Of a stretch of DNA of 32,373 nt, positions 13,330 through 32,373 are shown in pieces (position 1 is the stretch's first letter; each line of letters starts with the position of its first letter). Made by a program: the position numbers and the translations under genes. The notes below the pieces were generated by a model. The model made no database searches, was not told the origin of the DNA, and saw nothing but the letters and a program-made list of their open reading frames with translations. This DNA is from an uncultured Methylococcaceae bacterium (GTDB lineage: Bacteria > Pseudomonadota > Gammaproteobacteria > Methylococcales > Methylomonadaceae). Location: assembly GCA_903918335.1 (NCBI GenBank), contig CAIXDX010000118.1, forward strand, positions 1 through 32,373. Direction: 5' to 3'.

Positions 13330-14037
13330 TTGAATGCAAAAATGCCAGAAACTACAATATCCGAGCAAATAAAAATTTCAATAATTGATAGTAACCCAAT
13401 AAGTAGATTAAGTTTTCATAAACAACTGGAGCTCTTCGGGTATCAAATTGATAATTATGAAAAGGTGGAATTAGTAGAAAACATATCATCTTCACCATTA
13501 AGTGATATTTATATTTTTAAAAATATTCAACTCGCCCACAATAACTTAACAATACTTCATGAACTCAGCATTAAATTTAAGAAAGGTATAATTTTTCTTG
13601 CGGATGCACCTAGATATGAAGATAAAATTTATGCAATAGAACAATGTGCAGATATTTATTTATGTTCATCAGTGGATAATTTTGAGCTTAATGCTTACAT
13701 CAAAAGTCTTTATAGACGCTTAAATCCAATTCAAAATTCATATTGGAAATTCGATACTAAAAACAAAGCATTGATATCTAAAAATAATAGTAGCTTATAT
13801 CTCACTAAAAATGATTTTGTTGTTCTAAAATTACTAATTAATCCATCCAATTCGATAATATCTAGAGAAGAAATTGCTCAATCTTTAAAAATTTCAAATA
13901 AATTTTATCAACTCCAACTCAACACGATCATAAGTAGAATACGTAATAAATTAGAGTATTTCGATACAAGACTTACTATACAAACAGTAAGAGAAATCGG
14001 CTATGTTTATAAAGGACCCAGAATTTTTATAGAATAA
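13330..14037 (+). CDS. OmpR-type winged-helix regulator with degenerate (pseudo-)receiver domain
   Basis: N-terminus ISIIDSNPISRLSFHKQLELFGYQI is receiver-like; C-terminus LTKNDFVVLKLLINPSNSIISREEIAQSL...LNTIISRIRNKLEYFDTRLTIQTVREIGYVYK is an OmpR winged helix. Start could be TTG 13330 or ATG 13342. Confidence 0.82.
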   Translation: MNAKMPETTISEQIKISIIDSNPISRLSFHKQLELFGYQIDNYEKVELVENISSSPLSDIYIFKNIQLAHNNLTILHELSIKFKKGIIFLADAPRYEDKIYAIEQCADIYLCSSVDNFELNAYIKSLYRRLNPIQNSYWKFDTKNKALISKNNSSLYLTKNDFVVLKLLINPSNSIISREEIAQSLKISNKFYQLQLNTIISRIRNKLEYFDTRLTIQTVREIGYVYKGPRIFIE

Positions 14038-15637: not shown

Positions 15638-16978
15638 TTAAGCTCTAATAATTCTTAATCGGAGCAAAAGGTAATAAATCAAACTCACAAGTACAAAACT
15701 AATATAGGGACCTACATCCAAATCATCAATCAATTGTGCAGCTACGCCGGTGTAAAGTGGATTAACTGAAAATAATGCCACTGAAATTGCTGAGACTAGA
15801 AACATAATAAAAAAACCTGTTGTAAAACCCTTTGGAGTGTATCTAGAATGTCTGCCATAAACAAACCAATGCACCAGTACAATAGCGGCCCATGGTGTAA
15901 CCCAATGGGCAAATAAAAATAAAAAATCTTCAAAGAATTCAACAAAAGACTGGCTTGCAAAAAGACTAATCACATAACCAATAACCGCTCCCAAAATGGC
16001 TGATGTGGGTCGTGAAAATTTGAATCCAAACGAAATTAATGTGTATGCAGCCGAATTATCATTCATTGCATTTGCAGGTATTGCTGTAAACCAAATGACC
16101 AACAATACAATAGGTGCATAGCTACCTGATAACTTTTGTAATCCCATCATTACACCCTCAGGCGTATGAGTAGCAAAAGCGGAGGCTGTCATGTAACCAA
16201 AAATGGCTAATATAGTTAAAGAAAGAAACAAGGCCATAAAAGTCAATAGAAACACTTTACTATGAGGCGTGCTATTAGGTAAATATCTTGTGTAATCAGA
16301 GGTACAAGTAGTCCATCCTAAGTTATAAGCACTTAATAGAATAAATGCAGATACCAGATTAGAAGAGCCAGTCGATGTTTCAAGTGCTGAAGGTAATCCC
16401 ACTTTATCAATAGAAACAAAGCCAATAATGATGAAGAATACCGCTAAAAGACTGCCGGTATATTTACCCGTAGTTTGAATGAGATGATGCCCATAAACAC
16501 CAATCACTAATTGCAATACAACTAATATAGCCAGGGCAAGCCACATAGGTACTGTAATATTATAGTGAGCTAATAAGACAACGAAAGCAGTAGCCGATAT
16601 GACATTATTAATAACATCCCAGCCAATTGCATTAAGCCAGTTTAAAAAAGCCGGCAACCTTTTCCCTGAAGCACCTAAAGCAAACCGACTAGCTTCAATT
16701 TGTGATAAGCCGGTTTTAGGTCCGATTACACTTGTTACTGCCGGTAATGCACTCCCAACCAAACTGCCGAATACAATAACAAACATAGCATCTACAAAGT
16801 CTAAACCCATCCCGGCAACCAACACGCCTATTAGCCAAGTAGCAATACCTGTATTACCCCCTAAAAACACCCAAAAAGGCTTTTCTATCGCTAATGTTTG
16901 CTCACTTTCTTGTACACCATCATTGATGAATGAATAATGAGTGTTTTCCATGGGAATATTTATACGCTTTAGCACCAT
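15638..16978 (-). CDS. NCS1 family (purine-cytosine permease / allantoin / hydantoin type) transporter
   Basis: FLGGNTGIATWLIGVLVAGMGLDFVDAMFVIVFGSLVGSALPAVTSVIGPKTGLSQIEASRFALGASGKRLPAFLNWLNAIGWDVINN, SAYNLGWTTCTSDYTRYLP; about 12 hydrophobic segments. Confidence 0.85.
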   Translation of the reverse strand: MVLKRINIPMENTHYSFINDGVQESEQTLAIEKPFWVFLGGNTGIATWLIGVLVAGMGLDFVDAMFVIVFGSLVGSALPAVTSVIGPKTGLSQIEASRFALGASGKRLPAFLNWLNAIGWDVINNVISATAFVVLLAHYNITVPMWLALAILVVLQLVIGVYGHHLIQTTGKYTGSLLAVFFIIIGFVSIDKVGLPSALETSTGSSNLVSAFILLSAYNLGWTTCTSDYTRYLPNSTPHSKVFLLTFMALFLSLTILAIFGYMTASAFATHTPEGVMMGLQKLSGSYAPIVLLVIWFTAIPANAMNDNSAAYTLISFGFKFSRPTSAILGAVIGYVISLFASQSFVEFFEDFLFLFAHWVTPWAAIVLVHWFVYGRHSRYTPKGFTTGFFIMFLVSAISVALFSVNPLYTGVAAQLIDDLDVGPYISFVLVSLIYYLLLRLRIIRA

Positions 16979-17202: not shown

Positions 17203-17961
17203 ATGAATATATACATAGATGATAATTTAAATAAAAATAATATAGATATAGCAGAAAGTTTTTTTTCTACACCCAAACATCGTCCTTTTATAGCGATTAG
17301 TTTAGGAAGTACACCGCCTCCAATTGAAGTAGCTGTGCAAATTTTAAAATGGTCACTAATAAGCCATTCTCCAATAATCCCAATACTTTTTGCTGACGAT
17401 ATTGCAACTATAAATTATCGGGCATTTGGCGACAGTGAAACGAGAGCTATTAAAGAAGTTGATAAAAGTAAACGTAAGCATTTTTTAGTCTGGCAAGAAG
17501 CACTAAATTACCTAGAAAAAAACGAAAAGCCACGTGTACGTTTCATTAATTGGAAGGATATTTTAAACCCTGATGTTCAAGAACAACAAAATTTTGTGCG
17601 AGAAATATTTAATTGCAAGGGTGAATTATATAAATCTATCTTAACATTGGTGGAAAGTTTTATTAGCTCAGCAGGTAAGACTTACACTTTGAAACGTGGA
17701 TTAATAATGGCCGAATATGTTATTCAAGAATTACCATCACTTATTTTTGGGATCAAGTATGATGAAATAAATTATCAGATGACATTATATCCCACATACA
17801 CTTCTCCAAAAGAATTTCAAAACTTTCTCGTTGCAGTAATAAGAAACCCTGATTTCAAATTATATTTCAATAAATACAATAAGAACGAATTAGAATATTG
17901 CAAATTTATTCATATGATAATTTCAGATAAGAATAAAAGAAATGAAAAAAACGACATATAG
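17203..17961 (+). CDS. tRNA-dependent cyclodipeptide synthase (CDPS), probable XYP subfamily
   Basis: FIAISLGSTPPPIEVAVQILKWSL matches the catalytic-Ser region (AlbC GISAGNS); EYVIQELPSL matches NYVLAEAPLF with Tyr and Glu four residues apart (AlbC Y178/E182); LYP matches the Y202-P203 signature of XYP members; middle region KRKHFLVWQEALNYL...RVRFINWKDIL similar in layout. Confidence 0.85.
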   Translation: MNIYIDDNLNKNNIDIAESFFSTPKHRPFIAISLGSTPPPIEVAVQILKWSLISHSPIIPILFADDIATINYRAFGDSETRAIKEVDKSKRKHFLVWQEALNYLEKNEKPRVRFINWKDILNPDVQEQQNFVREIFNCKGELYKSILTLVESFISSAGKTYTLKRGLIMAEYVIQELPSLIFGIKYDEINYQMTLYPTYTSPKEFQNFLVAVIRNPDFKLYFNKYNKNELEYCKFIHMIISDKNKRNEKNDI

Positions 17962-19963
17962 AAATCTTTTTTTAACTTGTTTAATTTACTCATTATTTCA
18001 GGATGTAATTGCATCAGAATCAAATAATGATATTGGTTTAGACGATGAGTTAAAATTTCTCGCAGCAGAAAGGCAATTAGTTATAACAGCCTCAAAACAA
18101 GAAGAAAATGTTTCAAAAACAATCGCGACTACTTCAATTATTACACAAGAAGATATCCGTCAAATTGGTGCTCGTAATTTACTTGATGCATTAAAACTAA
18201 TACCCGGTCTTGGAATAACCGAATCAATGCTTGGTGTTAGGGAAATTGAAGTTCGAGGTGTTAAAAGTTTAGCGTCAGAGAAAGTGCTATTTATGCTAAA
18301 TGGACACCCGCTAGATCATAATTTGCAAAACGCAGGCAGTACCTGGGTTTATGATGACTTGCCCGTCGATAATATTAAACGTGTTGAAGTCATTCGCGGA
18401 CCTGGTTCAGCGCTTTACGGAGCTAATGCTTTTTTAGCCGTTATTAATATCATAACCATGACAGCTAAAGATCTAAATGGTTTTCAAGCATCCACTGGTT
18501 TTGGTAGTTTTGATACTCAACAATATAGAGCAGGCTGGGGAAAGCAATTTTCTAATACCGCCGAAGCGGCCGTTAACTTTAATTATTCATCAACTAATGG
18601 GATACAAGCTCCCGTTTCACAGGACATATTAGGCTCTAGTGGTTTAGCTCCAGGAAATACTCAGCTTAAAGAAGGACGCACGGATCTTGAGTGGAATTTA
18701 GGTTACAACGATTTTAAATTAGATGGTCGATTTATTAATAAACCCACAGGAGCATTTGTAGGTGCAGCTTATGCACTTAGTGATCAAAGTAAACAAAATT
18801 ACGAAGATTATTTTCTCAGACTAAGTCGCAATTTTAATATTACTGAAAAACTTTCAATAAATACACAGGCCTATCACGATAGTTTCAGTTTTGATAATAC
18901 ATTTCAATTACTGCCAAATCAGTTTACTAGAACCGCATTAGTTGATAACCGTAATGGTGGTGAAATTCAAACAAATTATAAAATCACTAACAAACAAAAT
19001 TTAATTGCTGGATTTTCTTATTCTGAAGATATACAAAGTAATCTTTTATCTGAAGCGGGACCTAACACATATCAAATGGTTAACACCCCACTTTTCGGTA
19101 GTAACAGAATTAGAACTCGATGGGGCTTATATGCTCAAGATGTATGGGATCCGTTTGATAATTTAAGATTAACGATAGGTGGACGATATGATCAATATAA
19201 TGATTTTGGTGGTACCTTTAATCCTAGATTAGGTTTTAACTGGGAGTTTATTAAAAATTACTCTATTAAATCGTCGTATGGTACTGCCTACCGCGCACCC
19301 TCTTTTGGTGAAATGGATTTAAGAAATAATCCTGTTTTAGCTGGAAATCCAAACCTTCTTCCGGAACAAGCACAAACCTTTGAAGCAGGACTTATTGGAC
19401 ACCCAACTACTAATCTAATGGCTCAAGCGACATATTATCATACGGATATTACCCAAATCATCAGCACCATTCCAGGCACTATTACCCAGTCAGAATACGC
19501 TAATAACGGCCATATGTTATCTGAAGGTGTCGAACTGGAAAGTAGGTATGATTTTGAAGGTCAGTTAAAAGGGAGTTATATTTCATCGAATGTTGTCTAT
19601 CAACATACTATTCAAAATAATTTACAAGTCCCTGATGTACCCAATGCGCGTGCTAACTTAATAGCAAATTGGGCCTATGACAGGCAATGGAGTGTCTATG
19701 GCCATATGCTTTTCAAAGATTCAACAAGTCGTACTATAGGGGATATTCGAAGCGATGTACCATCGTATGCGGTTTTCGACTTGAGTTTACTAGGTAAGCA
19801 ATTTTTGAATAAACGATTTGACGTTAGTTTTACCATTTATAATTTATTAGATAAACGTGTTTATGATCCATCACCTCTAACAGCAGGAAATGGAAATTAT
19901 CAATTAAGCGATTATCAGCAATCGGGGCGTGCCTTTTTTGGACACATAAATTTACGTTACTAA
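17942..19963 (+). CDS. TonB-dependent outer-membrane receptor
   Basis: TonB-box-like QLVITAS, plug domain DIRQIGARNLLDALKLIPGLGI...VEVIRGPGSALYGANAFLAVINII, beta-barrel repeats, C-terminal GRAFFGHINLRY. Overlaps the CDPS 3' end by 20 nt. Confidence 0.95.
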   Translation: MKKTTYRNLFLTCLIYSLFQDVIASESNNDIGLDDELKFLAAERQLVITASKQEENVSKTIATTSIITQEDIRQIGARNLLDALKLIPGLGITESMLGVREIEVRGVKSLASEKVLFMLNGHPLDHNLQNAGSTWVYDDLPVDNIKRVEVIRGPGSALYGANAFLAVINIITMTAKDLNGFQASTGFGSFDTQQYRAGWGKQFSNTAEAAVNFNYSSTNGIQAPVSQDILGSSGLAPGNTQLKEGRTDLEWNLGYNDFKLDGRFINKPTGAFVGAAYALSDQSKQNYEDYFLRLSRNFNITEKLSINTQAYHDSFSFDNTFQLLPNQFTRTALVDNRNGGEIQTNYKITNKQNLIAGFSYSEDIQSNLLSEAGPNTYQMVNTPLFGSNRIRTRWGLYAQDVWDPFDNLRLTIGGRYDQYNDFGGTFNPRLGFNWEFIKNYSIKSSYGTAYRAPSFGEMDLRNNPVLAGNPNLLPEQAQTFEAGLIGHPTTNLMAQATYYHTDITQIISTIPGTITQSEYANNGHMLSEGVELESRYDFEGQLKGSYISSNVVYQHTIQNNLQVPDVPNARANLIANWAYDRQWSVYGHMLFKDSTSRTIGDIRSDVPSYAVFDLSLLGKQFLNKRFDVSFTIYNLLDKRVYDPSPLTAGNGNYQLSDYQQSGRAFFGHINLRY

Positions 19964-19983: not shown

Positions 19984-20826
19984 ATGAGTATTAATACGTT
20001 TACAAATATAAATCGATGCACTATAAAAACACTTCTGAGTGTGTTTTTTACTTTAGTGCTTTTAATTCAAACAGCGCCTGCGGGTACAACGAGTACTGTT
20101 TTTTTCTATAATCCAGAAAGTAGCGTTGACAATTTTGCTGCCTTAAAATCTGAATTTGATGATTATTTATCTAATCTAGGTGAATTTGCATTTCAACCAT
20201 TTAGTGAACGAGCGACTTTCGAAACTGCCCTAACAGAAAAATCTCAAGGCATTTATCTTTTATCAAGTTGGCACTATACCCAGTTAAATTCTAAAACGCC
20301 GTTAGAAGCTAAACTAGTCGGTGTATCCAAAGGTGAATTACAGCAACGTAAGATTCTTACAGCTAAAGATATTAGTACTATTTCCTCATTATCAGGAGCA
20401 ACCATTGCAGGAGCAGGTAGTGACGAATATATTAAAGGTCAACTACAACAGATGCTTGGTTCTGAATATTCGGTAATTATTCCTAAGATTAAATTATTAA
20501 GTGTACCCAAAGATATCGATGCGTTAATGGCCGTAGGTTACGGTGTGGCTGGTGCAGCAATTTCTTCAGAAACTAGTTTTAATAAACTAGCTATGATCAA
20601 TCCAAAACAACACGCACAATTAAAAAAACTAGCGGATGGTGAGAAAAACTTTTTACTTATTGCTGCGGTTACCAAAGTACAGAAAACAGATGAAACTCCG
20701 CTACTAAAAGTAATTGAAGGGATGCAAGATCAAGAAATTGGAGAGCGTAAATTAAAAATGTTAGGGCTTGATGGTTGGAAACGCATAGATGCGTTGGACG
20801 CCTCTTTATCAAAACAACTAAGATGA
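19984..20826 (+). CDS. PhnD-like periplasmic substrate-binding protein
   Basis: Signal peptide TLLSVFFTLVLLIQTAPAG; periplasmic-binding layout with LEAKLVGVSKGELQQRKILTAKDISTISSLSGATIAGAGSDEYIKGQLQQML and ILTAKDI-type linker. Confidence 0.6.
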   Translation: MSINTFTNINRCTIKTLLSVFFTLVLLIQTAPAGTTSTVFFYNPESSVDNFAALKSEFDDYLSNLGEFAFQPFSERATFETALTEKSQGIYLLSSWHYTQLNSKTPLEAKLVGVSKGELQQRKILTAKDISTISSLSGATIAGAGSDEYIKGQLQQMLGSEYSVIIPKIKLLSVPKDIDALMAVGYGVAGAAISSETSFNKLAMINPKQHAQLKKLADGEKNFLLIAAVTKVQKTDETPLLKVIEGMQDQEIGERKLKMLGLDGWKRIDALDASLSKQLR

Positions 20827-21797
20827 TTGCGCAAATGAAAATGAACTTCTCTAAAAGTATTAATAGACTTATCTTAAAGCTAATTTTTCAATTGGTGATC
20901 TTATTTTTAATGGGAGTCGTTCCTGCGTTTGCAGATAATCCTAGTAAAATCTTTATTGTGAACTCTGACGCAACTGTTACTAAATATCGAGAAGTAAAAT
21001 TAGCATTTATCTCACAATTAAACAAACAAACTAATAGTACCGTAGAGTTTACTATCGATGACAATCATACTCCTGAGCAATTAGAAAAACTTATTAAAAG
21101 TGAAAATCCAGATTTGATTTTCAGTATAGGTTCTCAAGCTTATCAACTATCAAGTCAATATGGAGAAAATAAACCGATATTATTTTCATCGGCTATTAAT
21201 TGGCAAAGATTTGGACATAGAGACAATACTTTTGGCATAGCTAATGAATTATCTATGTCACAAGAATTATCATTATCGCGCTACGTTCTTCCTGGTCTAA
21301 ATCGCATTGGTGTGATTTATGATCCTAAATTTAATACAGAACGCATTGCTGAAGCGCGTAAACAAGCAACTGAGCTTGGCTTAACTCTTGTTGAGCTAAA
21401 TAATTTTGAGGCTGACTCTTTAGAAAAAAATGTTGAAGAATTGCTTTCAAAAATCGATATCCTCTGGCTCATTGCTGATCCAAGTGTACTGTCTGACAAA
21501 GATACTGTTGAAAAAATCTTTAATCTCAGCACAGAACACAAAAAACCAATAATTACTTACAGCAATGCATTTATGAGCTATGGGGCAAGCTTAATTATAG
21601 CCGCTGATACTCCAACAATGGGCCGACAAGCGGCTAATTTGGCTCAGAACATTTTATTACATGAACGAATCAAAGAAGTTGTTCAAACACCCGCCGGATC
21701 TCATATTGCCCTAAATGTTTGTCAGTTGAATAAAATTAACATTCGTTACAATGCTGATGCTTTGGATGCTGTAAACCAAATTATCGAATGTAAATAG
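20823..21797 (+). CDS. ABC transporter substrate-binding protein, ABC_sub_bind (TrpX-like) family
   Basis: Signal peptide; PDLIFSIGSQAYQLSSQ, KPILFSSAINW, LPGLNRIGVIYDPKFNTERIAEARKQATELGLTLVEL, IITYSNAFMSYGASLIIAADTPTMGRQAANLA. The ATG at 20823 overlaps the upstream stop (ATGA). Confidence 0.85.
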   Translation: MIAQMKMNFSKSINRLILKLIFQLVILFLMGVVPAFADNPSKIFIVNSDATVTKYREVKLAFISQLNKQTNSTVEFTIDDNHTPEQLEKLIKSENPDLIFSIGSQAYQLSSQYGENKPILFSSAINWQRFGHRDNTFGIANELSMSQELSLSRYVLPGLNRIGVIYDPKFNTERIAEARKQATELGLTLVELNNFEADSLEKNVEELLSKIDILWLIADPSVLSDKDTVEKIFNLSTEHKKPIITYSNAFMSYGASLIIAADTPTMGRQAANLAQNILLHERIKEVVQTPAGSHIALNVCQLNKINIRYNADALDAVNQIIECK

Positions 21798-21842: not shown

Positions 21843-24320
21843 TTGAAAAACTCTAAGGCAGACCGTATGAGAAATTCTCAACAACGACCAAGAAATAGTA
21901 TTCGATGGAAGCTACTCTCAACAATGATAGGACTGATTGTTGCACTGGTAGTAACCATGACAAGTATTGAAGTTATCTTACAGAAGAAATCACTAGAAAA
22001 TGAATTAGGTAAGCGGATTAACTTAATGAAAGTCAACTTGATTGAACGTGGTAACGCCATGTCCAACCTCATGTTGACACAAGTAGAAAATGATGTTGCC
22101 GCTTTTAACTTTTCACGGATCACAGAAAATTTACATAATACGATCAAAGAATCACCGCTATTAGATTATGGGATTCTTATGAATAACGAAGGTATTGTAT
22201 TTATTCATACTAGTCATCCTGAACTCCAACAAGAAGTTTTACAGGACGAACAGAGTCATTACGCCTTAGCGCAACAACAACTAACACATCAAGAATATCC
22301 AGACAATAACGTGACTGAGTTCATCTTACCCATACATTTTGGGACAAAGCAATGGGGTGTCTTAAGGCTTGGATTTAGTTTAAAAGAGTTACAGCAAGAA
22401 ATATCTAATTCTAGAGAGGAAATTACTCATACGACTCAGAATATGATTACAACAACTACTGTCATCGCGTTATTCTTTGTTTTAATAGGTTCAATTATTG
22501 TACTAGTCATCTCAACAACACTATCAAGACCATTAATACGACTAACAGCGTCAGTTAAAGAATTAGCACGTGGTAATTTTGATTCCGCAACCCAACTTTT
22601 AGGCAACCATTCAGGTAATACTAAAACTGATTTTAAAGCCGAAGGTGAAATTGGTGAATTAGCAAATTCTTTTCTTGAAATGGCAAATGAAATACAACAA
22701 TCTCATCAAAATTTAGAAGAATATAACAGGACTTTAGAGCAAAAAGTAAAAGAACGAACGCATGAACTAGAAGAGGTCAATGAAAAATTAAAAGAACTTG
22801 ATCAAATGAAAACTAACTTTCTTTCTACTGTTTCTCATGAATTACGTACACCTTTAACTTCTGTTATTGGCTTTGCACGCATTATGCAGAAAAAGTTTGA
22901 GAGCGTACTTTTTCCTGCATTAGCAGAAAACGAAGACAAAAAAGTTATGAAAGCAATTCGGCAAGTTATAGATAATACTGAAATTATTATTGAGGAAGGA
23001 GAAAGACTGACTTCTTTAATTAACAACGTCTTAGACCTTGCTAAAATGGAAGCAGGACGGGTTGATTGGAATATTACGGAATTGAATATTGAAACTGTCA
23101 TTAATCGAAGTATTGCTTCCACCTCTTCATTGTTCGCTGTTAAACCTGTCAAACTAGTTACAGAAATACCTACAAACTTACCTCTATGTTTGGGCGATTA
23201 TGACCGACTCATTCAGGTTGTTATCAACCTTATCTCTAATGCCATTAAATTTACAAATGAGGGTAAAGTTACCATTAAAGTTGAATACCTCAATGCTGAA
23301 ATTATAACCAGCGTTATCGATAGTGGTACCGGTATAAAAAAAGAAGATCAACCATTAGTATTTGAAAAATTCAAACAAGTTGGCGACACCTTAACTGATA
23401 AACCACAAGGAACGGGCTTAGGGTTACCAATTTGTAAAGAAATCGTAGAGCATTTAGGTGGGCGTATTTGGGTAGAAAGTGAAATTGGGCTTGGCAGTAC
23501 ATTTTCTTTTTCTTTACCCGAATCAATACAACAAAATGAATATAGCAACACATGTGATGATATTGATTACACATCTAAAGGGCTATTAGTAAGCAAAGAT
23601 GGTGAAGAAGTCAGTTATATTTGGCAAACAAATGGTAACAATTTAGAAGACGCTTTAAGTAATAGTTTGGCTCTATTTAATAAACCAAAGCACAAAACCA
23701 ATCCATGCATTTTAATTATTGATGATAATTTAAACATTCGGCAATTTCTTCATCAAGTTTTAAGCACTGCAAGCTATGATGTTCATGAAGCTAGTAGTGG
23801 AACTGAAGGTCTCGAAATCATAAAAAACCTCCTACCTGACCTCATTATTCTTGATGTAAAAATGCCGCAGCTAAACGGCTTTAAGGTGGCTGTAAGACTG
23901 CACGCTAACCCTCTGACACTTCATATTCCTATTATTCTTCATACCATAGCCGAAGATCATGCTCTAGGTGAACAATTAGGTATCGATTGCTATTTAAATA
24001 AACCCGTCAAAGATGACGTTTTATTGGATGCCGTCAAACAATTGCTAGAAACACAAAAAACTCGTAAGAAAATATTATTATTTATAGCAGACAACGATAA
24101 AAGACAACGCTGGGTGAGTTTATTGACTCAATATGGACTTGAAACCGTAGCAACTCAAAACATAGAGGACGGCATTTCTGCGGCGACAGCATTTGATCCG
24201 CAACTTGTAATCGCTGACACAGCATTAGTTCAACAATATAATATTATTGAAAAAATTCGCGATGAGCATCGTTTAGATAAAATAGTATTCACTTTACTTG
24301 ACGAAACCAACTCTGTTTAA
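21843..24320 (+). CDS. hybrid sensor histidine kinase: periplasmic sensor, HAMP, HisKA, HATPase, receiver, plus second C-terminal receiver-like region
   Basis: Two TM segments; HAMP STTLSRPLIRLTASVKELARGNFD; H-box FLSTVSHELRTPLTSVIGF; VINLISNAIKFTNEG; GTGLGLPICKEIVEHLGG; REC ILIIDDNLNIRQFL...LIILDVKMPQLNGF...YLNKPV. Start TTG 21843 or ATG 21867. Confidence 0.93.
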   Translation: MKNSKADRMRNSQQRPRNSIRWKLLSTMIGLIVALVVTMTSIEVILQKKSLENELGKRINLMKVNLIERGNAMSNLMLTQVENDVAAFNFSRITENLHNTIKESPLLDYGILMNNEGIVFIHTSHPELQQEVLQDEQSHYALAQQQLTHQEYPDNNVTEFILPIHFGTKQWGVLRLGFSLKELQQEISNSREEITHTTQNMITTTTVIALFFVLIGSIIVLVISTTLSRPLIRLTASVKELARGNFDSATQLLGNHSGNTKTDFKAEGEIGELANSFLEMANEIQQSHQNLEEYNRTLEQKVKERTHELEEVNEKLKELDQMKTNFLSTVSHELRTPLTSVIGFARIMQKKFESVLFPALAENEDKKVMKAIRQVIDNTEIIIEEGERLTSLINNVLDLAKMEAGRVDWNITELNIETVINRSIASTSSLFAVKPVKLVTEIPTNLPLCLGDYDRLIQVVINLISNAIKFTNEGKVTIKVEYLNAEIITSVIDSGTGIKKEDQPLVFEKFKQVGDTLTDKPQGTGLGLPICKEIVEHLGGRIWVESEIGLGSTFSFSLPESIQQNEYSNTCDDIDYTSKGLLVSKDGEEVSYIWQTNGNNLEDALSNSLALFNKPKHKTNPCILIIDDNLNIRQFLHQVLSTASYDVHEASSGTEGLEIIKNLLPDLIILDVKMPQLNGFKVAVRLHANPLTLHIPIILHTIAEDHALGEQLGIDCYLNKPVKDDVLLDAVKQLLETQKTRKKILLFIADNDKRQRWVSLLTQYGLETVATQNIEDGISAATAFDPQLVIADTALVQQYNIIEKIRDEHRLDKIVFTLLDETNSV

Positions 24321-24326
24321 AAAACT

Positions 24327-25871
24327 ATGATTCCAGACATAAAACTAAAACGCGTTTGTCAAAAAGGTAAATCAGCTGAACTTATCAAGCAATTTTGTAC
24401 AAATCGTTCCGACACACTTAGTATTGTTGAACCAAACTCTACCCTTGTATACGGTTCTATTTCTGAAGGTACCCGCCATGCGATTAAAGTAAATTCTGAT
24501 ACTATTCTAGGCTGGGTTATAGGAGATTCTGACGATGCTATTTATTTAGCAGAGTTAGTAAATTACATCGTCCAGAAAGAATTAGAAAGTAAATTACTCG
24601 CACAGGATACCCTAAGTAAATACAAAGAATTATCGTTACTCTATGAGCTAGGTGAAAAAATATCAAACTGCATTGATATTGATCAACTTGCTAAATTAAC
24701 CATAAATGAGGCTCAAAACTTATTAAATACCAATCAGCCTTTACAAATAGGTATTTTATTAAAAGATCAATCTGATGATAAGTTGGTAATTTTTGCAGGT
24801 AAAGGTGATATTTTTCCTGTTGGCTCAAAATTAGATGCAATTGATGGAATCACGCAATATGTTTTAGCGTCTGGCTCTGCTGAGATCGTTAATAACGTTC
24901 ATGATGATATTCGCTATCAAACAAATCCCGGTGAATTATTAAATATCCATTCTTTATTATGTACACCCATTAAAACCAGTGATCACACTTTTGGTGTTTT
25001 AAGCATCATCAGTATTCAAGAAGTATCGTTTAATGCCGCTGAATCTAAAGTTTTAAACTTACTCGCTTCCCAAATTGCCACAGCAATTGGTCGGGTACAC
25101 TTAATTAATGAACGTGTATCACAAGAAAGATATCAAGAGTCTTTGACTTTATCAAAAAACATTCAAATGGGCATGTTGCCTACCGCTTTCCCAAGATTTA
25201 CAGATGGTAGCAAATTTGATTTATTCGCTTTTATGCAACCCGCTAGAGAAGTGGGTGGGGATTTTTATGATTTTTTCAGACTTAATGCCACAGCATTATT
25301 AGTTGTCGTAGGGGATGTATCTGGCAAAGGAGTTCCAGCGGCACTATTCATGGTGCGCGTAATAACCTTAGTTAGGGCATTAGCAAAACAACATGATGTG
25401 GTTAGCGATATTTTAAATGCCTTAAATATAGAACTATGTCGTGATAATGATGCGATGATGTTTGTAACCATGTTCATTGCTACACTTGATCTAGAAACCA
25501 ATCAATTAAGCTACAGTTATGGCGGACATAATCCGCCTTTATTATTATCAAATTACGGTATCGTATCAATGCTACCAGGTGATTCTGGCATGGCTCTAGG
25601 TATATTAGATTCATCGCATTATTGCTTAGAGTTAATCCAAATAAATAAAGGTGACAGTTTAATTTTGTACACTGATGGCATTAATGAGGCCATGAACATT
25701 CATTATGAAGAATATGGGGATGAGCGTTTTAGTCAATTAGTCACCGGTTTAGATGCTTTAAATGCGCAAGCGTTAGTTGAGACCATTACTAAAGATGTGC
25801 TCAATTTTACAGTAGGAGCCGAGCAATCTGATGACATTACCTTACTAACATTAAAAATTGCTAAAAATTAA
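24327..25871 (+). CDS. GAF domain plus SpoIIE/RsbU-type PP2C serine phosphatase
   Basis: GAF region (INEAQNLLNTNQPLQIGILLK...LLCTPIKTSDHTFGVLSII); PP2C motifs IQMGMLPTAFP, PAREVGGDFYDFF, VVGDVSGKGVPAALFM, SYGGHNPPLLL, LILYTDGINEAMN, EQSDDITLLTLKI. Confidence 0.93.
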   Translation: MIPDIKLKRVCQKGKSAELIKQFCTNRSDTLSIVEPNSTLVYGSISEGTRHAIKVNSDTILGWVIGDSDDAIYLAELVNYIVQKELESKLLAQDTLSKYKELSLLYELGEKISNCIDIDQLAKLTINEAQNLLNTNQPLQIGILLKDQSDDKLVIFAGKGDIFPVGSKLDAIDGITQYVLASGSAEIVNNVHDDIRYQTNPGELLNIHSLLCTPIKTSDHTFGVLSIISIQEVSFNAAESKVLNLLASQIATAIGRVHLINERVSQERYQESLTLSKNIQMGMLPTAFPRFTDGSKFDLFAFMQPAREVGGDFYDFFRLNATALLVVVGDVSGKGVPAALFMVRVITLVRALAKQHDVVSDILNALNIELCRDNDAMMFVTMFIATLDLETNQLSYSYGGHNPPLLLSNYGIVSMLPGDSGMALGILDSSHYCLELIQINKGDSLILYTDGINEAMNIHYEEYGDERFSQLVTGLDALNAQALVETITKDVLNFTVGAEQSDDITLLTLKIAKN

Positions 25872-25920
25872 TCGATCATTATCTACAATAACTTCCTAGG
25901 CCAATAAAGAGATTCAAACC

Positions 25921-26337
25921 ATGGCTGATTACCATTTTTCTAAAATAATCACGAATAATTTAGAGGAACTGCTTGTATTAGCAGAAGACGTTGAATTATT
26001 TGCTGAGCAAACAGAATGGTCACCTGCTGTTACCATGCAAATTAATCTTGTTATCGAAGAGTTAATCGTAAATACCATTAATTATGGTTATTCAGACGCA
26101 AGAGTGGGAAGCATACAAATAACTATCAAATCTACTACTCAACGCATTGTTCTTGAGATAAAAGATGACGGTGATGCTTATAACCCATTACAAAATGATA
26201 TGCCAGATACAACCTTAGAGATAGAAGATAGACCCATTGGGGGCTTAGGCATATTTTTAGTAAAAAACTACATGGATACCTTCGACTACGCTTATAGCGA
26301 AGGTCATAATTGCATCAATCTAAGTAAACAACTATAA
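25921..26337 (+). CDS. RsbW/SpoIIAB-type anti-sigma-factor-like serine kinase (HATPase_c_2)
   Basis: N-box INLVIEELIVNTINYGY, G1 EIKDDGDAYNPL, GGLGIFLVKNYMDTFDYAYSEGHNCINL; 138 aa. Confidence 0.9.
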   Translation: MADYHFSKIITNNLEELLVLAEDVELFAEQTEWSPAVTMQINLVIEELIVNTINYGYSDARVGSIQITIKSTTQRIVLEIKDDGDAYNPLQNDMPDTTLEIEDRPIGGLGIFLVKNYMDTFDYAYSEGHNCINLSKQL

Positions 26338-26344
26338 ATTTAAA

Positions 26345-28354
26345 ATGAGTGAAACAAGTAAACGCATCGGTTTATCCCTAGCCTTAATAATTCTCTGCAG
26401 CTCGTTATTATTATGGTCAGATAGACATAATCGCCATTCTGATTCTGAGGTAACACCCAGTGTTTCTAAAGAAATTCCTATAGCTTTACTACAATTAAAC
26501 ACAAACCCAATTACAGATGAAATGAGAGCTGGCATATACGATGCGTTGGGCGCCAAGGGCTTTAAAGAAGGTAGCAACATTAAAATTACCTATTACAATC
26601 CCGAAGGTGATTTACCTACAGCCAACTTAATGGCACAAAAAATTACAAGTGGCGAATATAAAGTCGCCATCTCTATTACAACATTAATGCTCCAGACCCT
26701 AGCTAATGCAAATCGGTCTAGCCATGTTACCCATGTATTTGGTGCAGTCACCTCCCCTATCATTGCTGGTGTAGGTGTAAAAGCGATTGATAGTTTAGAT
26801 AAACCCCCTTATTTAACCGGTGTTGGCACACCACAGCCCGTTAAAGAGATATTTCGGGTAGCAAAACAACTCAATCCAAATTTAAAAACTGTAGGTGTCG
26901 TTTGGAATCCAGCAGAAGTAAATTCTGAATTTTGTACAAAACAAGCACGGGAAGTTTCAGCGGAATTAGGCTTAACTTTATTAGAAGCCCCCATAGAACA
27001 AGCTAAAGACATCCGCGAAGCCGCACAATCATTAGTAACACGTGGTGTGCAAGCATTTTGGACTGGTGGAGATGCGACAGTTAATTCAAATGTACATGCA
27101 CTGATAGAAGTATCCACTAGCGCAAAAATTCCAGTTATCTCAAACATTACAGGCCACGCTAAACAAGGTGGCTTATTCGATTATGGGTCTGATTACCATG
27201 AAGTGGGCGAACAAGTAGGCCGTATAACTGCCGACATATTAGGAGGTAAAGATCCTAGCACTATCGCAATTACTAATTACACCCCTGAAAAAGTTATTCT
27301 AAATGAACAAGTTCAGAAGACTCTTAAAGAATCATGGACTTTTACGGATGATCTATATAAAAAAGCCATCACTATAATTGATGAAAATGGCAAAGTAAAT
27401 TCTACTAATACCAATACCATCGAAACAAACCCACAATCTAAAGAGCCTAGCATTATCATTGATCCCGATAAGCACTATAAAGTTGGTTTAGCTTATTTTG
27501 CGCCTGAACCCGGTATTGATTCAGTATTAGCCGGTTTAAATGCACAATTAAAACTTTTAGGTTTAGAAGAAGGCAAAAACTTAAGCTTTAAGACTATGCA
27601 TGCCCAAGGTGAAATTGCCCAAATCTCTACAATAGGTCAAGTATTAGACAGTAGTGATGTAGATGCCATTTTAACCTTAACTACACCAGTTCTTCAGGGG
27701 GTGGGCATGATGGCAAAACATAAGCCCGTCGTTTTTACTTATGTAACTGACCCGATTGCAGCCGGTGCAGGAAAATCTTTTACCGAGCATTTACCCCATT
27801 TGACGGGTATAGGCTCATTTCCACCTATCGAAGACATGCTAACGGTTACACAAAAAGTATTACCTAACATTCATAAAATAGGCACTTTATATAATCCTAG
27901 TGAAGTTAATTCAGTAAAAGTAGCCACAGTGATGCGAGATCTTTGTAAACAAAAAGGTTTCGAGTTTATCGAAGCACCCATAAATACAACGGCTGATGCC
28001 GTGCAGGCTGCTCAAAGTTTAGCCGCTCAAAATGTAGAAGCCATATTGTCAGTCAGTGACAATACGATGTATCAAGCCTTAGATGCTATCAGTAACGTTG
28101 CGACAAAAAGTCATATACCTGTGATATTAGATCAACCTGAGTTTATTGATCATGAAGCTCTTATGGTAGTGGGTGTGGATTATAAAGAAAGTGGCACTTC
28201 AGCTGCAGAACCACTAGCTCAAATTTTAACCGGTACTAATCCTGGTTCTATTCCATTTAAAAATGTGAGCAAAAAAGTCATTCTATTAAACGCTAAAGTC
28301 GCAAAAAACTTAAATATAGTCTTTACCGATGAAGTTCGGGCCTTGGCTAAATAA
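26345..28354 (+). CDS. tandem two-domain ABC_sub_bind (TrpX-like) substrate-binding protein
   Basis: N-terminal TM/signal then two homologous halves: LNPNLKTVGVVWNPAEVNSEFCTKQAREVSAELGLTLLEAPIEQAKDIREAAQSL and LPNIHKIGTLYNPSEVNSVKVATVMRDLCKQKGFEFIEAPINTTADAVQAAQSL. Confidence 0.9.
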   Translation: MSETSKRIGLSLALIILCSSLLLWSDRHNRHSDSEVTPSVSKEIPIALLQLNTNPITDEMRAGIYDALGAKGFKEGSNIKITYYNPEGDLPTANLMAQKITSGEYKVAISITTLMLQTLANANRSSHVTHVFGAVTSPIIAGVGVKAIDSLDKPPYLTGVGTPQPVKEIFRVAKQLNPNLKTVGVVWNPAEVNSEFCTKQAREVSAELGLTLLEAPIEQAKDIREAAQSLVTRGVQAFWTGGDATVNSNVHALIEVSTSAKIPVISNITGHAKQGGLFDYGSDYHEVGEQVGRITADILGGKDPSTIAITNYTPEKVILNEQVQKTLKESWTFTDDLYKKAITIIDENGKVNSTNTNTIETNPQSKEPSIIIDPDKHYKVGLAYFAPEPGIDSVLAGLNAQLKLLGLEEGKNLSFKTMHAQGEIAQISTIGQVLDSSDVDAILTLTTPVLQGVGMMAKHKPVVFTYVTDPIAAGAGKSFTEHLPHLTGIGSFPPIEDMLTVTQKVLPNIHKIGTLYNPSEVNSVKVATVMRDLCKQKGFEFIEAPINTTADAVQAAQSLAAQNVEAILSVSDNTMYQALDAISNVATKSHIPVILDQPEFIDHEALMVVGVDYKESGTSAAEPLAQILTGTNPGSIPFKNVSKKVILLNAKVAKNLNIVFTDEVRALAK

Positions 28355-28396
28355 AAATAAATACCCGCGATAACACTATTTATTAAGAGATCTGAA

Positions 28397-29626
28397 ATGG
28401 AAATTACGTCCAAACTCATTAATGATGAAACCATCATTAAACTAAGCGGTAGACTAGACGCCGCCTGGAGTAGTTCTGTAGATAAAGCCTTACAAGATAC
28501 TATCTATGAGGGCTCACATAGAATCGCTTTAGATTTAGCACAAGTCAGTTACATTAGTTCTGCGGGTATCAGAGTACTCGTCATACTAATAAAAAACCTT
28601 AAAGCACTGGGGGGTACTTTTCGACTTATCAATGCCTCACCGGAAGTATCAGATGTTTTGAATTTAGTGGGCTTTACGCAATTATTATCAACACTTAAAC
28701 AAAGTACAGTTACTCATGCACCATCCAATTCGCAACCAGAATCTCAAATATTACACCTTGCTGATAATGACTACTCTGTTTATACCTTAGATATCACTGC
28801 CAGCCAAATAGGCCAAGTAATTGGCGATGCGTCATTACCTAGCCATGAACTAAAGATGACAACTTTGCCAGTTAATCATGATAGCTGGCTTATTGGACAA
28901 GGGTGTCTAGGAAATAGCCCCTACGATACAAATAGTGGTGGCGAATTGTTAGCAGTGTCTGGTTTAGCAATTGCTTTACCCGGTGATGCAGAACAAGCGG
29001 ACTGGATACAAAAAGAACAAGAACTCACCCCGCAAGTTGGTCTTTTTCATGGCCTTAATGTTAATGGAAACTATCGTTATTTACTTAGATTCGGTGAAAC
29101 CGCTGGTGCATTGTCACTAAAACTCAGTGAATTAACTAAAGCCGCATTAGAAATTTGCGCTTCAGATACCGTGTCATTTGTGGCCTTAGCAGAAACAGCG
29201 CATTTAATTGGCGCAGTCGCCCAATTATCTCCTGAACAATATCCTGAAGACTTTTTTTCCTTTCCAAGCATACGCGATCGTTTGCTATTTACTGCAGAAC
29301 CAGCCTATGCAAACGAAACCTGTTTAATAATTGGGGTAATTTCAAGAAAACCTGATCAGCTATTAGCTAGTCAAGTTAGACCCTTAGCTGATGATTCTGA
29401 ACTTAGCATACATGCCCATGCTGGCATAGTGCCGTTTAATCCTATTAAAAAAGGCTACATTGAATTAGGGGATTCTTTAGATAAATTTATGAGCACACAA
29501 ACAATCCGTGGAGTTTTACATTTATTAAACGATGATAGAGACGGTGTAGGTGTAGGGGAAAGTTATCTGCGCAGAGGTGCTTTATGGTGTGCGCCTGTTA
29601 CTTTTAATGGAGAAAACCGAGTATGA
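28397..29626 (+). CDS. STAS domain (anti-sigma-factor antagonist-like) fused to ~290-aa uncharacterised C-terminal region
   Basis: STAS: IIKLSGRLDAAWSSSVDKALQDTI...RIALDLAQVSYISSAGIRVLVILIKNLKALGGTFRLINASPEVSDVLNLVGF; the C-terminal region has no family I recognise. Confidence 0.85.
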   Translation: MEITSKLINDETIIKLSGRLDAAWSSSVDKALQDTIYEGSHRIALDLAQVSYISSAGIRVLVILIKNLKALGGTFRLINASPEVSDVLNLVGFTQLLSTLKQSTVTHAPSNSQPESQILHLADNDYSVYTLDITASQIGQVIGDASLPSHELKMTTLPVNHDSWLIGQGCLGNSPYDTNSGGELLAVSGLAIALPGDAEQADWIQKEQELTPQVGLFHGLNVNGNYRYLLRFGETAGALSLKLSELTKAALEICASDTVSFVALAETAHLIGAVAQLSPEQYPEDFFSFPSIRDRLLFTAEPAYANETCLIIGVISRKPDQLLASQVRPLADDSELSIHAHAGIVPFNPIKKGYIELGDSLDKFMSTQTIRGVLHLLNDDRDGVGVGESYLRRGALWCAPVTFNGENRV

Positions 29627-30558
29627 CACTATTAATAGGCGCATTAACTTTAGGCATAATTTTATCTTTATTAGCACTAGGTGTTTACATATCCTATCGA
29701 ATCTTTGATATTGCTGACATTACCGTAGATGGCTCAATTACCTTTGGCGCTGCTGTTAGCAGTGTGCTGTTAGTCCAAATGGGTGTGCATCCACTATGGG
29801 CGACACTGGCAGGCTTTTTAGCAGGTGCTATAGCCGGTACTGTCAGTGGCATATTACAAACCCACTTTAAAATTAATCCGCTGCTGTCAGGTATCTTAGT
29901 GATGACCGGCTTATACTCGGTTAATTTACATGTAATGGGGCGAAGTAATATACCCTTTTTAGGCACAGTAACCCTGTCTACCTATTGTGAAAAAATAGGT
30001 AATATCGTTTTTGGTGGCAACGAAATCCTCTTGATGGGATGGACGGTTTCAACAACTGATTTAATGACGCTTATCCTAATGTTTTTATTAGTTAGCAGTA
30101 TCTCCTTAGTCTTATGGTTATTTTTTCATACCGATTTAGGGACAGCCATGCGCGCTTCTGGCGATAATCCACAAATGATAAGAGCACTGGGTGGTAATGT
30201 TGAATACTACAAAATATTTGGTTTAGCGCTATCAAATGGCCTAGTAGGATTAGCTGGCGCTTTATGGGCACAATATCAAAATTTTGCAGATGTACAAATG
30301 GGTATTGGCATGGTGGTTTGGGGCTTAGCGAGTGTCATTATCGGAGAAGCTTTAGCCGGAACAGCCAGTGTAGGTACGGCAATTATAGGCACTATCATTG
30401 GCTCAATTTTATTTAGACAATTAGTGGCTATCGCTTTATCGTTTGGCTTAAATCCAAATGACTTAAAATTGATAACCGCCCTATTCGTATTTGCCGCACT
30501 AATTTTACCCAATATGCTCAGTAAATTATCTGTTGGTAAACGCAAGGTGGCGCTATGA
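29623..30558 (+). CDS. ABC transporter permease, TrpY-like
   Basis: SYRIFDIADITVDGSITFGAAVSSVLL, GTVSGILQTHFKINPLLSGILVMTGLYSVNL, GTAMRASGDNPQMIRALGGN; ATGA overlap with the STAS gene. Confidence 0.9.
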   Translation: MTLLIGALTLGIILSLLALGVYISYRIFDIADITVDGSITFGAAVSSVLLVQMGVHPLWATLAGFLAGAIAGTVSGILQTHFKINPLLSGILVMTGLYSVNLHVMGRSNIPFLGTVTLSTYCEKIGNIVFGGNEILLMGWTVSTTDLMTLILMFLLVSSISLVLWLFFHTDLGTAMRASGDNPQMIRALGGNVEYYKIFGLALSNGLVGLAGALWAQYQNFADVQMGIGMVVWGLASVIIGEALAGTASVGTAIIGTIIGSILFRQLVAIALSFGLNPNDLKLITALFVFAALILPNMLSKLSVGKRKVAL

Positions 30559-31406
30559 ACAATCAACAATCTAACGCTAATTTAAATCCTGCTCTGGTTC
30601 AACTGACGGATGTCTTTAAAACCTTTAATGCCGGAACCGTTAATGAAGTTCGCCCCATGCAAGGGGTTAACTTAACAATAACCGAAGGTTCATTTGTTAT
30701 TGTGCTTGGCGGTAATGGTTCTGGAAAATCAACTTTACTAAATGCAATTGCCGGTAGTTTTATGATTGATACCGGTAAGATTGCATTAAATGGAGAAGAC
30801 GTAACGCAATGGCCAGAACACAAACGCGCCACGTTAATAGGTCGGGTATTTCAGAACCCTTTCTCTGGTACAGCACCCTCCATGTCTATTTTAGATAATT
30901 TTTCATTAGCGGCCAAACGCGGCAAGTTTAGAGGTTTAAGTTGGGCGCACTCGTCTAATTTACAAGATGAATTAAAAGATCGGGTAAGTGAACTAAAAAT
31001 GGGCTTAGAAAACCGATTGGATACAGCCATTGGTTCATTATCCGGCGGTCAAAGACAAGCCTTAACTTTATTAATGGCTACTTGGCTAAAACCAAAGTTA
31101 CTCTTATTAGATGAACATACCGCAGCACTTGACCCCAAAAGTGCCGATCAAGTCATTGCATTAACGGAACAAATAATCTCTAAAGAAAAATTAACCACGC
31201 TTATGGTTACCCACTCTATGCAGCAAGCAATTAATTTGGGTGACCGGATTATCATGATGCATAAAGGAAATATGTTACATGACGTTAATGCGCATGAAAA
31301 ACAACGTTTACGCATCGATGATTTACTGTCTAGATTTGAAAATGTAAGACGCAGAGAATTATTAGATGAAAGTGTGGCCGATTTATTACGACTAAGATAT
31401 ATTTAA
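30555..31406 (+). CDS. ABC transporter ATP-binding protein, TrpZ-like
   Basis: Walker A LGGNGSGKSTLLN, signature LSGGQRQALTLLMATWLKPKLLLLDEHTAALDPKSADQ, H-loop MVTHSM; ATGA overlap with the permease gene. Confidence 0.95.
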   Translation: MNNQQSNANLNPALVQLTDVFKTFNAGTVNEVRPMQGVNLTITEGSFVIVLGGNGSGKSTLLNAIAGSFMIDTGKIALNGEDVTQWPEHKRATLIGRVFQNPFSGTAPSMSILDNFSLAAKRGKFRGLSWAHSSNLQDELKDRVSELKMGLENRLDTAIGSLSGGQRQALTLLMATWLKPKLLLLDEHTAALDPKSADQVIALTEQIISKEKLTTLMVTHSMQQAINLGDRIIMMHKGNMLHDVNAHEKQRLRIDDLLSRFENVRRRELLDESVADLLRLRYI

Positions 31407-31459
31407 CCATACCATACACAAAAACACCCTTTAACCAACAAGCTTAGGCATAGACTAAC

Positions 31460-31846
31460 ATGAGTAAAAAACTACTAATAACCGATGATGAACCTCATAT
31501 TAGGTTATTACTTGAACAAGCACTTGAAGACCTAGAAGATCATGATGTGGAATTTTTCTTTGCTGAAAATGGTGAAATAGCTTTAGAAATTATTGAAAAA
31601 GAAAAACCACAATTAGTATTACTTGATGTAATGATGCCCAAAATGAATGGTTTTGATGTGTGCAAAACTGTTAAAAAAGACTGGGGCATGGATGATGTTT
31701 TTATCATTATGTTAACCGCTAAAGGCCAAGAATATGATAAAGAGAAGGGCCTAGAAGTTGGCGCCAATTTTTATATAACCAAGCCATTTAATCCCGATGA
31801 AATCATGGCCCACGCCCTAAAAGTATTTGACATTGAATTAGATTAA
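31460..31846 (+). CDS. single-domain (CheY-like) response regulator
   Basis: LLITDDEPHIRLLLEQAL, LVLLDVMMPKMNGFDVCK, IIMLTAKGQ, FYITKPFNPDEI; no output domain. Confidence 0.93.
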   Translation: MSKKLLITDDEPHIRLLLEQALEDLEDHDVEFFFAENGEIALEIIEKEKPQLVLLDVMMPKMNGFDVCKTVKKDWGMDDVFIIMLTAKGQEYDKEKGLEVGANFYITKPFNPDEIMAHALKVFDIELD

Positions 31847-32373
31847 TGACTATGCAAGCATTTATACATCCTACTTTGAATAAATTATTAGACGGTATCA
31901 AAAATTTTCAACAACGGGTTTATGATCAGCACCTATTCAACATGAAAGATTTAGTAGAAGTCGGGCAACAGCCGAAGGTTTTATTAATTTCGTGCAGTGA
32001 CTCCCGCGTTGACCCTGCTATATTAACCAATGCGGCTCCTGGTGATTTATTTGTATTAAGAAATGTTGCTAACCTTGCGCCAAGCTATGAATTAGAAAGT
32101 AAATACGATGGTGCACGTTCTGCAATTGAATATGCGGTGAGAGATTTAGAAGTTGAGCATATTGTTATCTTAGGTCATGCACATTGTGGCGGCATAAAAG
32201 CTTTACTTAAATCATTATCAGGACAATCAATCCCTAGAGATTTTATTGGTGACTGGGTATCCATCGCTAAAGAGGGTTGTGAACGCTATGTCATAGAGCA
32301 ATTGGGTGATCTGAATAAACCTTTAAAGGAGGCTGATTTGGAGAACTTACATGAACATATACATTTACTTGAG
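31846..32373 (+). CDS. beta-class carbonic anhydrase (3' end truncated by window)
   Basis: Translated by hand: MTMQAFIHPTLNKLLDGIKNFQQRVYDQ...PKVLLISCSDSRVDPAILTNAAPGDLFVLRNVANLAP...EHIVILGHAHCGGIKALL. CSDSR and HAHCGG zinc-site motifs; ATG at 31846 overlaps the preceding TAA. Confidence 0.93.
   Translation, partial: MTMQAFIHPTLNKLLDGIKNFQQRVYDQHLFNMKDLVEVGQQPKVLLISCSDSRVDPAILTNAAPGDLFVLRNVANLAPSYELESKYDGARSAIEYAVRDLEVEHIVILGHAHCGGIKALLKSLSGQSIPRDFIGDWVSIAKEGCERYVIEQLGDLNKPLKEADLENLHEHIHLLE

Follow-up and report, generated by a model that had tools for sequence, protein, structure and literature searches.

Cyclodipeptides are often termed bacterial signals, and the locus described here raises the question of whether a methanotroph reads a cyclodipeptide of its own making. 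The window, by which we mean the whole stretch of 32,373 nucleotides that was analysed, comes from an uncultured Methylococcaceae bacterium and contains an open and intact reading frame of 252 amino acids (17203-17961, forward strand). The initial annotation took it for a cyclodipeptide synthase (CDPS) of the XYP type with no usual tailoring enzymes nearby and with a receptor, sensors and transporters as partners. In the open-licence papers that we searched, we found no account of a receptor/sensor operon that includes a CDPS, and no case of a dedicated cyclodipeptide synthase genetically tied to a receptor and a sensor; what is new here is the operon context of the CDPS and not the enzyme family.

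The synthase and its likely product

The family and the fold of the protein are settled. It matches the Pfam profile PF16715 (E=2.6e-7; 31.1 bits against a curated cut-off of 27), a profile that returned zero matches in 14 control genomes, and phmmer against the PDB retrieves Parcubacteria CDPS structures at E=3e-11. An AlphaFold2 model built on an 18-sequence alignment (mean pLDDT 88.6) has the class Ic aminoacyl-tRNA synthetase-like Rossmann fold of CDPSs. In a Foldseek search of the PDB its top 48 matches were all CDPSs, with class Ic tyrosyl-tRNA synthetases next; ParcuCDPS, AlbC, YvmC, Rv2275, Fdum- and Nbra-CDPS and others are among the best. The profile search and the structure prediction, both proposed as checks in the initial annotation, thus returned the family that it had named. 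Against NCBIfam TIGR04539 the protein scores 29.5 bits, under the cut-off of 45, so automatic pipelines could leave the gene unnamed. It is the sole CDPS detected in its assembly, which is about 76% complete.

The residues singled out in the initial annotation all lie where it placed them: Ser33 in FIAISLGS, Tyr172 and Glu176 in EYVIQELP, and Tyr196-Pro197 in LYP. Asp65 is kept as well, and Ser33, Tyr172, Glu176 and Tyr196 are the equivalents of the catalytic set Ser37, Tyr178, Glu182 and Tyr202 of AlbC. Orthologues occur in six other genomes with every catalytic residue kept, so that the set is complete in 7/7 operon CDPSs. The XYP subfamily is defined by a variable residue at position 40 followed by Tyr202 and Pro203 (AlbC numbering); the window CDPS has Ser36 at position 40, then Tyr196 and Pro197, and is of the XYP type as claimed, X being Ser36. 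Position 40 is Asn in some orthologues from genus g18, where Tyr-Pro is still kept. The operon CDPSs diverge to 36% identity, and dN/dS, where measurable, is 0.12-0.33; the relatives are therefore under purifying selection. With these profile and structure matches, orthologues and selection, the identification as a CDPS is near-certain. The gene probably encodes a functional enzyme, which would join two amino acids from aminoacyl-tRNAs and release the cyclodipeptide.

In a tree the seven operon CDPSs form a single clade that groups with ParcuCDPS (Parcubacteria RAAC4_OD1_1; 7QB8, 7QAQ), which is also the nearest solved structure by sequence and fold. ParcuCDPS shares the catalytic residues, but it is only about 20% identical to the window CDPS and its P1 pocket is His-specific. 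We mapped the pocket columns through an alignment to ParcuCDPS; the mapping is supported by its return of the published ParcuCDPS motifs GAYAWELY/FEWKYTR (PMC5816076 Table 2). For the window CDPS it gives FALIWSLT for P1 and LSFSTTS for P2, the final three letters of P2 being our ungapped reading of residues after Tyr-Pro, where the MAFFT alignment introduces a gap. Read in the same ungapped way, the orthologue from another genus (G065) has FGLVWSLL/LNYSTYA.

One row of the published table, FGLAWSLL/LNYSTYA, accommodates Phe, then Phe/Tyr (PMC5816076 Table 2). We take this row, from its specificity and the row order, to be that of CDPS 91 of Methylovulum miyakonense, which in Escherichia coli yielded cFF (51.5%), cFY (36.1%), cFL (8.2%) and cFM (3.5%) (PMC5816076). 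That enzyme is likewise of the XYP type and from a methanotroph, and the main text of the study describing it carries no mention of a TonB receptor (PMC5816076). The motif so assigned is identical to the G065 pocket at 14/15 residues and differs from the window pocket at 7/15 positions. The window enzyme thus adds a member to a known family, and a likely relative of it has been biochemically tested. Its most likely product, judging from these pockets, would be a hydrophobic and probably Phe-containing (aromatic) cyclodipeptide; an aromatic Phe-containing product is our best guess for this type of CDPS, with less certainty where the window enzyme is concerned.

An operon of uptake and sensing genes

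From the CDPS, which comes first, to a carbonic anhydrase at the window's end, all genes run in the same direction with short gaps. The 3' end of the CDPS gene overlaps by 20 bases the start of a gene for a TonB-dependent outer-membrane receptor (17942-19963, forward strand like all that follow), which has Pfam plug and beta-barrel domains and PDB relatives in BtuB and Cir. Two periplasmic binding proteins come next. The first is weakly PhnD-like (19984-20826; PF12974 below cut-off); its orthologues in the operon are 69-85% identical, no sequence match to it was found in the PDB, and its predicted structure reaches a pLDDT of just 39.9. The second belongs to PF04392 and is TrpX/CD0873-like (20775-21797; PDB 6hni, 3lkv, 3lft). 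They are followed by a hybrid histidine kinase (21843-24320), in which Pfam finds a periplasmic Cache-like sensor (below cut-off), HAMP, HisKA, HATPase and receiver domains, by a GAF-SpoIIE protein phosphatase (24327-25871; Pfam) and by an RsbW-like serine kinase/anti-sigma factor (25921-26337; Pfam HATPase_c_2). The second half comprises a double TrpX-type binding protein with two PF04392 domains (26345-28354; 342 bits with NCBIfam TrpX, missing the cut-off of 390), a STAS-domain protein of the anti-sigma factor antagonist type (28397-29626; Pfam, and TIGR00377 above cut-off), an ABC permease in a TrpY-like position (29623-30558; BPD_transp_2), an ABC ATPase in a TrpZ-like position (30555-31406; ABC_tran) and a stand-alone response-regulator receiver (31460-31846; Pfam). 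Only the start of the beta-class carbonic anhydrase lies within the window (31846-32373); the one in the same place in a near relative, a Methylococcales MAG from Lake Pavin (G029), is identical at 146/176 residues. The arrangement suggests that the CDPS gene belongs to one transcription unit with the receptor, the binding proteins, the kinase and the SpoIIE/RsbW/STAS switch.

As the initial annotation had noted, the usual tailoring enzymes are absent: no cyclodipeptide oxidase, P450 or diketopiperazine-type methyltransferase was recognised in the window, where the only methyltransferase is RlmI-like (58-1188), and no oxidase, P450 or methyltransferase gene was found beside the CDPS among the annotated reading frames of the window or in the orthologous operons. 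In AlbC-, YvmC- and bicyclomycin-type clusters the CDPS is the first enzyme, as here, but those clusters have oxidases, P450s and other tailoring enzymes, whereas this unit has none and holds uptake and sensing genes instead. The aromatic amino-acid importers TrpXYZ and CD0873 (PF04392) share the binding-protein family with the operon, which also has a permease and an ATPase; it differs from them in its double binding domain and in the extra single-domain copy beside the kinase.

The receptor, sensor and transporter neighbourhood that had been proposed is real, in that the receptor, binding proteins and kinase are conserved across genera, but not every neighbour is a partner. The divergent NCS1 permease gene (15638-16978) has been almost entirely lost from G029, where a short 5' remnant is left and the last residues are fused in frame ahead of a Ca/H exchanger (L019:1004-2430), and we dropped this permease as a cyclodipeptide transporter. 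An OmpR-type regulator (13330-14037), for which Pfam shows a DNA-binding domain only, may regulate the CDPS locus; a 44% identical OmpR-type regulator is also found near the CDPS in G029. A promoter scan gave a site count not above that of shuffled sequences, and PADLOC returned no defence match.

Distribution, co-occurrence and synthase replacement

The operon is patchily distributed. A full operon-type CDPS gene is present in 2/35 genomes of the window's genus and in 5/20 of genus g18, no CDPS relative was found by Pfam search in 369 genomes sampled from other families of the class, and no relative of the window CDPS turned up in plasmid records or viral contigs. G024 is an exception: it has only the N-terminal part of a CDPS, at the end of a contig and next to a transposase-like gene (L033:1-1998; IS66-like by eye), and a search of the genome yielded no match to an operon binding protein.

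The gene order in G029, the only match in a contig scan of other genomes, is that of the window, and the core order was found again in two genera. In two genera the CDPS lies directly upstream of the receptor, the two genes overlapping or lying a few bases apart, at a CDPS identity of 36-46%; the receptors directly downstream of the CDPS in other genomes are 63-79% identical. In g18 the order is carbonic anhydrase, NCS2 permease (a nucleobase permease by Pfam), STAS, CDPS, receptor, binding protein, TrpX-like protein, kinase, SpoIIE and RsbW. The STAS gene ends 4-5 bases ahead of the CDPS in G140 and G234, and in G234 the second half, from the double binding protein to the response regulator, is adjacent in divergent orientation. 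Between the window genome (G000) and G029, base identity is about 98-99%, a short dip excepted, over a stretch that begins inside the kinase gene and runs as far as the response regulator (window 23300-31700 against L019), whereas three other genes or gene groups reach 79-84%; so sharp a tract indicates that part of the operon was recently exchanged between the two species. The CDPS diverges faster than its neighbours. The g18 orthologues are 47-55% GC and located in the same operon, so the AT-richness of the window gene alone is no sign of foreign origin, and we rejected the idea that only the CDPS was recently acquired from a foreign source, because orthologues occupy the same operon in another genus.

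Among the 20 g18 genomes, the eight with a CDPS are the same eight with the operon, and 12 have neither (Fisher p=8e-6, treating genomes as independent of kinship, scoring G285 as operon-positive by its receptor alone since its contig is cut, and dividing close from distant operon copies by a line set after inspection of the data). Counting by genus across the family, we obtain p=0.003.

Three of the eight g18 carriers (G210, G292, G298), and G272 from another genus, have in place of the operon-type CDPS a protein of about 390 amino acids in which an aminoacyl-tRNA editing domain (PF04073, YbaK-like) is fused to a CDPS. These fusions (loci L025-L032, for example L029:8306-9466, reverse strand) form a lineage separate from the operon CDPSs. 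In G298 the fusion CDPS heads the same operon: its gene is directly upstream of the carbonic anhydrase and NCS2 permease, and its contig and the one carrying the STAS, receptor and binding-protein genes have the same 28 bases at their ends, within the permease gene. Such adjacency was seen in one of the four genomes; in the other three the fusion gene was not seen next to the operon. Of all the evidence that the cyclodipeptide is important to the operon, the strongest is this substitution, in which the receptor/sensor unit stays the same and a second synthase lineage takes the place of the first. Only standalone CDPSs had been reported in 2010 (PMC2922099) and C-terminal CDPS fusions of other kinds have since been mentioned (PMC5816076); we found no report of an editing-domain/CDPS fusion in the open-licence papers searched.

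Synthases lie beside sensors and transporters at other loci as well. In genus g28 an editing-CDPS fusion shares its locus with two permease genes and with genes for an oligopeptide-binding protein and a PAS-GGDEF-EAL protein (L029:5957-13854, L030:88-8007). At three loci of other gammaproteobacteria (L076:4386-6688, L081:9550-12246, L082:9459-10851) the CDPS is flanked on one side by a small PQ-loop-like protein and on the other by a PAS-domain protein; the latter is a histidine kinase at L076 and at L081, while L082 is cut by the contig end. On account of these loci, the pairing of CDPSs with sensors may be a wider theme.

A proposed self-made ligand and its alternatives

Taken together, we put at roughly 50% the probability that a self-made, probably aromatic and unmodified cyclodipeptide is the ligand of this receptor/sensor system and is taken up and read as a putative signal. 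Starting from the observed enzyme family, catalytic residues, fold, gene order, conservation and co-occurrence, we infer a circuit in which each later step, from catalytic activity and product to export, re-import and sensing, is conditional. The CDPS would produce an unmodified hydrophobic cyclodipeptide from aminoacyl-tRNAs, which would leave the cell; the TonB-dependent receptor would return it, or a complex of it, to the periplasm, where the binding proteins and the Cache-like hybrid kinase would read it, and the SpoIIE/RsbW/STAS partner switch would convey the output. The TrpXYZ-like importer may import the product or its amino acids. The CDPS fold, conserved residues, purifying selection, gene order in two genera, co-occurrence in g18 and lineage replacement all count for this reading, as do the G065 pocket match and the lack of a tailoring gene in the conserved unit. 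PF04392 has tyrosine- and tryptophan-binding members, CD0873 (PMC6816091) and Streptococcus suis TrpX (PMC9382623), and an aromatic ligand, or what it breaks down to, would be in keeping with this. Linkage of a synthase gene to a receptor or sensor gene, a criterion for quorum sensing, is seen here in the conserved operon and the co-occurrence. Against the self-made ligand count the differences in the window pocket, the three fusion genes not seen beside the operon, and our failure to identify an exporter for the product.

The sensing genes also occur apart from the synthase. In genus g15 a receptor that is 56-61% identical to that of the window is accompanied by two binding proteins (L057:6898-10682, L066:6330-10108), yet we found no CDPS in that genus, nor a kinase beside these genes; the ligand of the operon need not, then, be self-made. 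The trio of binding proteins and kinase is more widespread still, with unrelated receptors and in several genera lacking a CDPS, so the ligand may also come from outside, which lowers our confidence in a self-signal. Both observations would suit a nutrient-sensing operon for an outside compound in which a co-regulated CDPS makes a toxin or antagonist against competitors or hosts, as would the faster evolution of the CDPS, but no immunity or export gene was recognised beside the CDPS and the tight STAS-CDPS-receptor placement is preserved between species; we consider this unlikely. A lower probability still attaches to the CDPS accompanying the operon by chance, functionally unconnected to it. 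The patchiness of the unit and its partial exchange between G000 and G029 would agree with such a passenger, but a tight order that persists at 36-46% CDPS identity, the one-to-one co-occurrence in g18 and the arrival of a second CDPS lineage as replacement argue against it.

The cyclodipeptide, perhaps modified by enzymes whose genes lie elsewhere, might instead bind iron, copper or a lanthanide, with the receptor importing the complex and the kinase sensing the metal. We think this improbable to much the same degree as an antagonist, although the nearest solved relatives of the receptor are BtuB and Cir. Metal complexes are common cargo of TonB-dependent receptors, which speaks for a metallophore, but hydrophobic plain cyclodipeptides are poor chelators. 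The CDPS-made pulcherriminic acid does chelate iron (PMC5767969), but it requires an N-oxidising P450, and neither a P450 nor another tailoring gene is part of the conserved unit; the PF04392 relatives, moreover, bind amino acids.

Returning to the self-made ligand, we propose only tentatively, and with some doubt, that it forms part of a self-contained cyclodipeptide signalling system of methanotrophs, in which a dedicated receptor and paired binding proteins would feed a kinase and a partner switch, a fast-changing synthase would set strain-specific signals, and two CDPS lineages would fill the same slot. With synthase, outer-membrane receptor, binding proteins and kinase in one conserved unit, the idea of a cyclodipeptide as an evolved signal can be put directly to the test, and a comparison of the ligand of the g15 receptor would bear on the self-signal idea. 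A signalling circuit of this kind would suggest a role for a type of CDPS whose measured products had no known purpose.
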